NCBI RefSeq assembly: GCF_017696205.1 | Contig: NZ_JAAORD010000002.1 | Coordinates: 372,001 to 436,000, forward strand | From: Prochlorococcus marinus XMU1402 | GTDB taxonomy: Bacteria > Cyanobacteriota > Cyanobacteriia > PCC-6307 > Cyanobiaceae | Length of the DNA: 64,000 nt | Direction of reading: 5' to 3' | Position numbers and translations under genes: made by a program | Shown: positions 54,895 through 55,977 of the stretch, in pieces | Numbering within the stretch: the stretch's first letter is position 1 | Layout of the letters: each line of letters opens with the position of its first letter | Notes under the pieces: model-generated | The model's input: only the letters and a program-made list of their open reading frames with translations | What the model was told of the DNA's origin: nothing | Databases searched by the model: none

Positions 54895-55008
54895 ATGAAT
54901 TTAACTAATCCATCGATAATTAAAAACTTGCTAATTCGATTTATTACATACACAATATTTTTGTTTCATAAACTAAAATTAAAACAGTATTTAGAACGTT
55001 ATTTTTAA
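54895..55008 (+). CDS. Possible 37-residue hydrophobic small ORF
   Basis: In the 294-bp space between lipA and the resolvase-like gene. It runs ATG to TAA with a hydrophobic stretch (LLIRFITYTIFLF) and a basic C-terminus. There is no recognisable family or clear ribosome site, and it may be chance in AT-rich DNA. The rest of the space holds an inverted repeat at 55066-55081 and nothing else I can name. Confidence 0.2.
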   Translation: MNLTNPSIIKNLLIRFITYTIFLFHKLKLKQYLERYF

Positions 55009-55065
55009 TACAGATTTCAAAACAATTCAATTATATATCAGATAGCTCAAAAATTAAGAGTCTAA

Positions 55066-55081
55066 AGTACTTTTTTGTACT
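55066..55081. promoter_or_regulatory. Inverted repeat AGTAC-N6-GTACT ahead of the resolvase-like gene
   Basis: Two 5-bp arms (55066-55070 and 55077-55081) around six T. The inner bases satisfy GTA-N8-TAC, the NtcA consensus. It lies only 4 nt before the ATG at 55086. If it is a real activator site the promoter is inside the annotated 5' end and translation starts later, perhaps at the TTG at 55140. By my rough estimate some twenty GTA-N8-TAC matches are expected by chance in 64 kb of DNA this AT-rich. Confidence 0.25.
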
Positions 55082-55085
55082 AAAA

Positions 55086-55763
55086 ATGTGTTTTTTTTTA
55101 ATTTATTGGTACAGTAAAAAATATATATTTAATAAAACATTGTCTTTTAAATTTAAAAGAAAACGTCTTTTACTATCTGAAAAATATAAAAGCTCTAAAG
55201 CAATAGGTTATGCTAGAGCTATTCATAATGAACATGCATACTTAGAAGAACAAATAAAAAATTTAAAGGAAGAGGGTTGTAGTTTAGTTTTCTCTGAATT
55301 GATAAGTTTAGATGAAGAAATTAAACCCCAACTCAATAAAGCTATAAATTGCTTATCTGAAGGCGATCAATTAATAATGACTCAGCTTGATCGAGCATTT
55401 AAAAATAAAAAAGAATGTTTGCGGACAATAAATAAACTTATTAATAAGAATATTAAATTGAGAACTTTGAATGATTTTTTTGCTGATAATGAATCCTCTA
55501 AATCAAATTCTTCAATTTTTAAGATTTTATATGAATTAGATAATTTAGAAGACAAAAGTTTAGGTGAAAGAAAAAAAGAACAACTATTACGCAGAAAATT
55601 ATCTGGAAATAATCTGGGAGGCAGGCCCAAAATAAGTCCTTTAAAAGAATCTTTAGTCATCAGATTGCGTAATGAGGGATATTCATATCGATCGATCAGA
55701 TCACAAACGGGAATTGCATTATCAACAATAAGAAGAGTGATTTTAGAAGGAGAATTAATGTAA
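55086..55763 (+). CDS. Serine-recombinase (resolvase/invertase)-like protein lacking the catalytic serine
   Basis: 225 residues. Residues ~39-170 align with the resolvase domain of Hin-type invertases: IGYARAIHNEH for IGYIRVSTIDQ, MTQLDRAFKN for VWKLDRLGRS. The C-terminal GRPKISPLKESL...YSYRSIRSQTGIALSTIRRVI matches the Hin DNA-binding helix-turn-helix. The catalytic Ser position is Ile46, and the second arginine of DRLGRS is lysine. It is thus probably a DNA-binding protein without strand-cutting activity. The first ~35 residues may not be translated. A 70-residue gene follows after 1 nt. Confidence 0.75.
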   Translation: MCFFLIYWYSKKYIFNKTLSFKFKRKRLLLSEKYKSSKAIGYARAIHNEHAYLEEQIKNLKEEGCSLVFSELISLDEEIKPQLNKAINCLSEGDQLIMTQLDRAFKNKKECLRTINKLINKNIKLRTLNDFFADNESSKSNSSIFKILYELDNLEDKSLGERKKEQLLRRKLSGNNLGGRPKISPLKESLVIRLRNEGYSYRSIRSQTGIALSTIRRVILEGELM

Positions 55764-55764
55764 A

Positions 55765-55977
55765 ATGATAAATAAAGAAATTGAAAATTTAATTAAGGAA
55801 AATTTCAAAGATACAGCATTGCGTATTTATGAATTAGGTAATGAAGATAGAAGAAGTTTATTAGAAGAATATAGAGAATGGATTATGAATGATTTAGATT
55901 TTGAAGAGGTAATGATGTTACCTTATGAAGCCTATACAGATAAAATAGATTCTAGTTATTTAGACGATTTACTATAG
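55765..55977 (+). CDS. Small hypothetical protein, unknown
   Basis: 70 residues, acidic and probably helical (EIENLIKENFKDTALRIYELG, then RRSLLEEYREWIMNDLDFEEVMML). No recognisable domain and no membrane segment. It starts 1 nt after the resolvase-like gene, so the two are translationally coupled. Its last 22 nt overlap the 3' end of the convergent beta-lactamase-like gene. I do not recognise the family. Confidence 0.65.
   Translation: MINKEIENLIKENFKDTALRIYELGNEDRRSLLEEYREWIMNDLDFEEVMMLPYEAYTDKIDSSYLDDLL

Follow-up and report, generated by a model that had tools for sequence, protein, structure and literature searches.

Near the end of the 64,000 nucleotide stretch of the Prochlorococcus marinus XMU1402 genome analysed here (the window), a recombinase-like gene is found in the order glutamate synthase, YCII, lipA (reverse), recombinase-like gene, S70, beta-lactamase-like gene (reverse), NlpC-like gene and psaL (reverse), where the names of the neighbours are our own reading. 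We compared this region across 146 loci (45 + 80 + 20 and the window itself), 113 of them distinct, which were drawn from 210 matching genomes, some of them present in two collections. L001 and L187 were left out as the same DNA as the window, the short match L178 was left out of the column counts, and L148, L167, L178 and L185 were left out of the upstream motif and arm counts. In 141 of the 146 loci the gene is preceded by lipA on the opposite strand; of the remaining five, three (L118, L141 and L143) are too short on this side for a decision, and L144 and L145 have other DNA there. Behind the gene, the beta-lactamase-like neighbour is present in 146 loci, the NlpC-like gene in 144 and psaL in 98; flanks are short in the other loci.

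The initial annotation of this DNA had described the recombinase-like gene as coupled to another gene, and the wider sample bears this out: S70 follows at every locus, with a gap of 1 nt in 139 of the 146 (a count in which some genomes figure twice). S70 has no match in Pfam, NCBIfam or PHROG. It matched 51 of 200 sampled genomes of the family, 38 from its own genus and 13, weakly, from genera g22 and g24, and the same search also gave weak matches to small paralogues. Many genomes of the genus also carry a distant 61-residue paralogue (L208, G000:C1:342045-342230, reverse).

Positions 55086-55763 of the window form an open frame, and its product matches Pfam Resolvase (PF00239) above the cut-off (5.7e-17), the PHROG family 'DNA invertase' (4e-31) and, by phmmer against solved structures, Gin (2.8e-11 over residues 40-216) and Sin. 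Pfam HTH_7 (PF02796) reaches 19.1 bits against a cut-off of 23.8, and three C-terminal helices are present at this end of an AlphaFold2 model (62 sequences, mean pLDDT 83.7, pTM 0.64) that also contains a strand-helix core and a long helix at 122-155. Foldseek placed 5cy1 (Tn3 resolvase) and 5c32 (Sin) first, with Gin structures also matched; full-length superpositions were loose (rmsd about 10-16) and that on the Sin catalytic domain was tight (rmsd 2-3). On the strength of these matches we class the product as a small serine recombinase by descent, of the resolvase/invertase type, with the domain order short basic N-terminal tail, resolvase fold, long helix and C-terminal helix-turn-helix (HTH). 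The full-length Hin layout proposed initially thus holds as homology to this family, but Hin was rejected as the nearest solved relative, Gin being nearer by sequence and the Tn3 and Sin resolvases by fold.

The frame proposed initially is open throughout, but its 5′ end needs correction. An in-frame stop falls within columns 1-18 in 35 of the 113 distinct orthologues. Column 19, corresponding to TTG 55140 in the window, reads TTG in 108 and GTG in 2 (110/113), and it is the sole possible start in 81, column 2 being also usable in 23. Of the 6 rows (out of 113) in which column 1 is readable, only the window has ATG there, a codon created by an extra base within a conserved block; the other aligned rows shown lack this base. 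For columns 1-18 the dN/dS ratio is 0.68, for columns 19-36 it is 0.24. Because of the stops, the codons at the start column, the dN/dS values and the extra base behind the ATG, we rejected ATG 55086 and place the start at TTG 55140, which gives a protein of 207 residues (Table 1).

Table 1. Features of the recombinase-like locus, in window coordinates
Feature	Position	Strand	Evidence or remark
Conserved block I, core TAGAACGTTATTTTTAATACAGAT, putative binding site	54988..55024	.	107 distinct upstream regions aligned
Spacer between blocks, unconserved, drifting, about 46 bases	55025..55070	.	per-column identity mostly 0.3-0.6
Conserved block II, up to the start codon	55071..55139	.	putative promoter and binding sites; contains the spurious ATG 55086
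Recombinase-like gene, catalytically degenerate	55140..55763	+	207 aa, start TTG; Pfam Resolvase, AlphaFold2, dN/dS
Codon of the catalytic serine column (Ile in the window; residue 46 of the 55086 frame)	55221..55223	+	
Lys at the Tn3 Arg45 column	55323..55325	+	K in 113/113; R in 38/41 relatives outside the orthologue group
Lys at the Tn3 Arg71 column	55401..55403	+	R in 1/113; R in 35/41 relatives outside the group
Asp at the Tn3 Arg125 column	55551..55553	+	R in 1/113; R in 33/41 relatives outside the group
C-terminal helix-turn-helix, near-invariant	55605..55754	+	42/50 positions at least 95% identical; dN/dS 0.042
S70, 70-aa protein	55765..55977	+	directly behind the recombinase-like gene; 146/146 loci; dN/dS 0.15

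The nucleophilic serine, equivalent to S10 of Tn3 resolvase, is replaced by Ile in the window protein and is present in only 7 of the 113 orthologues, the full count at this column being T 81, I 22, S 7, A 2 and V 1; it is Ser in 32 of 41 relatives outside the orthologue group. The codons are ACT (78), ATA (12), ATT (9), TCT (5) and others (9), mostly one base apart, a spread resembling that of a column under little constraint. The initial annotation had correctly read, for the window genome, both this Ile and the Lys at the second Arg of DRLGR. The check that it proposed, whether the Ser-to-Ile change is fixed across Prochlorococcus, failed, and Ile46 as a fixed change was rejected in view of the five residues that share the column.

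Three arginine columns have also been replaced (Table 1), two of which we take to be those of Arg45 and Arg125, and the third that of Arg71, for which a contact has been proposed in Tn3 resolvase (PMC4499144). The columns of Arg8 and Arg68, residues that contact the scissile phosphate in Tn3 resolvase (PMC4499144), keep R in 113 and 111 of the 113 orthologues, respectively. The Asp36 column is uninformative because Glu is found there in 37 of the 41 outside relatives too. Since Lys occupies the Arg45 column throughout, no orthologue combines Ser with every Arg; the seven that do bear Ser show Lys in place of both Arg45 and Arg71, and D or E in place of Arg125. Serine in homologues had been named as a sign of a decaying recombinase; it does occur in these seven, but without Arg at three active-site columns they do not speak for decay. 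No second match to the gene was found in a search of the window genome. Judged from these columns, it is almost certain that catalysis has been lost, and the protein would be expected to be inactive in the test tube.

Matches to the gene were found in 210 of 266 genomes of the genus, among them 83 of the 87 good genomes, and in 57 of 184 genomes outside it. Among the 210 best matches, six fall short of 1e-20 and are thus probably other relatives; since the match in G164, only 24% identical, is one of them, we count the orthologue proper in 82 of the 87 good genomes. Four of the five good genomes without it (G039, G040, G103 and G228) have a best lipA match of only 41-43% identity and gave no NlpC-like neighbour, which fits either a missing stretch or a lineage difference. 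A cyanophage source is unsupported by the phage collection, which gave 109 records, none reaching 60% identity; the 20 that were listed come from enterobacterial phages and are ∼32% identical or less.

The dN/dS ratio, obtained as summed pairwise Nei-Gojobori estimates from pairs with dS of 0.1-1.2 (pairs that are not independent), is 0.19 for the whole gene, 0.23 for the catalytic part and 0.042 for the HTH; the corresponding values are 0.084 for lipA, 0.051 for psaL and 0.22 for the NlpC-like gene. Positions at least 95% identical number 44 of 102 in the catalytic part, far below the proportion in the HTH, so that the description of the latter as well kept is confirmed, though its Pfam score lies under the cut-off. 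The fastest-evolving part, at 0.39, is residues 139-172, which make up most of the long helix, the element on which resolvases dimerise. One distinct row of the 113 (L017/L064, residue 103) has an in-frame stop in the gene body; in-frame stops were also reported for matching loci outside the 146-locus set, and a stop at column 20 in L143 is ahead of that locus's own start as read. These ratios, all below 1, demonstrate purifying selection on the recombinase-like gene, and the view that it is retained and not decaying stands. Prochlorococcus genomes are streamlined, yet the gene persists in nearly all the good ones and is therefore probably useful. What is selected is very probably a role in DNA binding.

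Upstream of the gene we aligned regions 150-900 bases long in which the 5′ end of lipA is complete, identical ones being counted once; the 107 kept all align in one orientation (18 rows shown) and contain two conserved blocks on either side of a drifting spacer. An RAACA-type arm stands directly before the start within block II, and AAACATTG, GAACATTG or close variants occur right before the start in 134 of the 146 loci of the genus. Ser-bearing relatives have TGTTC/GAACA half-sites upstream as well, and their start is directly preceded by a region such as TGTTCCAATAAGGGTGTTCGGTTGCTAT...TTTTTGGAAC. Of 30 upstream regions from these relatives, 22 contain GTGTTC, where shuffles give 5.4, and 19 have an RAAC[AG] arm 0-4 nt ahead of an in-frame start, where shuffles give 3.1. 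Among the degenerate relatives outside the group the right arm before the start is kept in only 2 of 6. The left TGTTC-type arm is 61-64 nt before the start in the genus rows where it was found and mostly 53-57 nt in the relatives, and because of this difference the sites of the two are not an exact match.

Dyad symmetry in the genus is indistinct, with five or more of 20 shuffles reaching the best dyad in all 15 rows tested. None of 20 shuffles reached the observed value for the degenerate relative L160 and for 6 of 19 Ser-bearing relatives (L154, L156, L158, L165, L166 and L176), and seven or more did so for the other five degenerate relatives. L160, which is without an active site, has perfect 14-base inverted arms upstream with a 29-nt centre. 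An EM half-site model trained on the relatives drifted to poly-T and a second model stayed weak. It is accordingly the place and conservation of the blocks, not symmetry, from which we infer that the protein may bind there; block II may be no more than a promoter and leader.

Searches of the window genome gave no good second copy of either block. Block I has no other copy within 3 mismatches. For the first half of block II there were 6 matches, which do not include the copy in the window (it has the extra base), and the reversed pattern gave 5; the second half gave itself and 4 matches at 3 mismatches against 1 for the reversed control. Two of the secondary-target matches (L197 and L200) are inside long ORFs. 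The sole TGTTCTN{9,16}AGAACA dyad in this genome is L207 (G000:C2:206322-206346), between trmD-like and glycosyltransferase-like genes.

Relatives at other loci provide context for the origin of the gene. A scan of 33 loci with Ser-bearing or unclear relatives found a tRNA gene at 14, a count that has no background rate for comparison. Six relatives (L158, L159, L169, L171, L174 and L179) share one gene (cluster c3) that adjoins the recombinase or lies close to it; in our reading the stretch HTHLHLG, present in L169 and L179, makes this gene HUH-Rep-like. The shared gene together with the nearby tRNA genes suggests islands, and these six are possible small integrative elements. G042, of the same genus as the window, also has two relatives, L176 and L177, with Ser and the Arg columns intact; they lie near tRNA-Asn and tRNA-Ser, and a long palindrome is present upstream of L176.

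The serine and other active-site residues are missing from six further relatives (L160, L161, L173, L182, L183 and L184_0). Like the Prochlorococcus orthologues, these degenerate relatives from other genera have the resolvase layout and a kept HTH with active-site residues lost, but they differ in locus: L161, L173, L182, L183 and L184 share one purM - tRNA-Cys locus and L160 is elsewhere. In a tree of 59 rows the Prochlorococcus orthologue group forms one clade (100/100) and the degenerate relatives stand apart from it, on long branches with weak support. Two changes between intact and degenerate are needed on this tree, of which the well-supported branches alone force one, the other degenerate rows being long-branched. 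Repeated loss of the active site across the relatives is likely on this reading of the alignment and tree.

Taken as a whole, the locus is probably best explained by a domesticated, catalytically dead serine recombinase that binds a site cluster upstream of its own gene and autoregulates a two-gene operon. The starting point would have been a resolvase/invertase-type small serine recombinase; the genes of its Ser-bearing kin in marine picocyanobacteria are preceded by res-like sites and are often found close to tRNA genes. In the ancestor of the Prochlorococcus group this recombinase may have taken its place between lipA and psaL and lost catalysis, the serine column drifting and three Arg columns being replaced, with the fold, the HTH and the upstream site cluster retained. 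The protein would bind this cluster in its own promoter region, much as Tn3 resolvase does at res, and binding would regulate the operon of the recombinase-like gene and the 70-residue protein without DNA cutting. That the binding and autoregulating job was kept and the cutting job lost is, we suggest, the simplest reading. Autoregulation of this operon we hold to be reasonably probable, its direction and any further target being matters of inference. The initial annotation had left the choice between a regulator and an architectural protein: retention of the DNA-binding part is upheld, and as to the role the conserved upstream blocks favour a putative regulator.

We consider it unlikely that these blocks are instead a promoter, leader or small RNA and that the protein regulates elsewhere in trans. 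The genus dyads, which do not exceed shuffles, would suit such a reading, as would TTGATACAGT...TAATA, which on our own reading of the alignment could be a promoter; against it, TGTTC/GAACA arms precede the start in the Ser-bearing relatives, where the right one abuts it as in the genus. An architectural role seems slightly less likely still. Here the dead recombinase would bend or pair the cluster, or perhaps other DNA, with transcription unaffected and the operon layout incidental; the S10A mutant of Tn3 resolvase still makes synaptic complexes (PMC4499144) and two separated conserved blocks would suit dimer pairing, but the blocks extend to the start codon, and the genome search gave no second site cluster as a pairing partner. 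More speculative, and improbable in our estimation, is the idea that picocyanobacteria have repeatedly domesticated dead tRNA-associated recombinases that guard the genome against incoming islands: a near-identical HTH would occupy the res-like sites of the islands, or mixed dimers would form there, so that active enzymes would be blocked by the dead protein, whose own level would be set by its site cluster.

A recombinase still active through altered chemistry, with a Thr nucleophile and Lys for Arg, could appeal to the prevalence of Thr at the serine column, the retained Arg8 and Arg68 columns and the conserved upstream region, but with Ile, Ala or Val at the serine column in 25 of 113 rows, three Arg columns lost and the upstream regions in a single orientation we think it very improbable. 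We give almost no credence to a decaying pseudogene of a mobile element; such a gene would have lost its catalytic residues, as this one has, and might carry a body stop such as that of L017/L064, yet decay is contradicted by the low dN/dS of the whole gene and of its HTH and by the presence of an orthologue in 82 of 87 good genomes.

If the gene is useful, then the Prochlorococcus group would have an unrecognised DNA-binding regulator with a coupled small protein. It would also be a case, open to testing, of a binder derived from a DNA-cutting enzyme, and the relatives with an intact active site allow side-by-side comparison. PMM1515 of strain MED4, printed as 'Site-specific recombinase' (PMC7852597), is an orthologue, since the primer printed for it (PMC7852597) translates as ELDNLDNECLG, as in rows L131, L134 and L137. 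The annotation (PMC7852597) implies activity, which the active-site columns contradict, and the label would be functionally wrong if retention of the gene reflects its usefulness. A search of the literature on Prochlorococcus recombinases and on inactive or domesticated serine recombinases, in which few subscription papers were covered, gave nothing on the gene beyond the PMM1515 annotation among the matches listed.

The gene product shares its fold, domain order and C-terminal HTH with Tn3/gamma-delta resolvase, Sin, Gin and Hin, and differs from them in the replaced Ser and three Arg columns; unlike members of the resolvase/invertase family, the gene sits at one chromosomal locus in an operon with a 70-residue gene. 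Binding without cutting has a precedent in Tn3 resolvase, where the S10A mutant is described as unable to cut while still binding and synapsing its site (PMC4499144). We propose a likeness to this NM S10A protein as a binder, with the difference that NM S10A is a laboratory mutant (PMC4499144) and the Prochlorococcus gene represents a natural loss kept across the genus. TnpR of Tn3 autoregulates from res, which contains its own promoter (PMC7157771), and the proposed mode, a protein acting on sites that hold its own promoter, would be shared with TnpR at res (PMC7157771). In contrast to TnpR, only the DNA-binding role would remain in the putative Prochlorococcus regulator.
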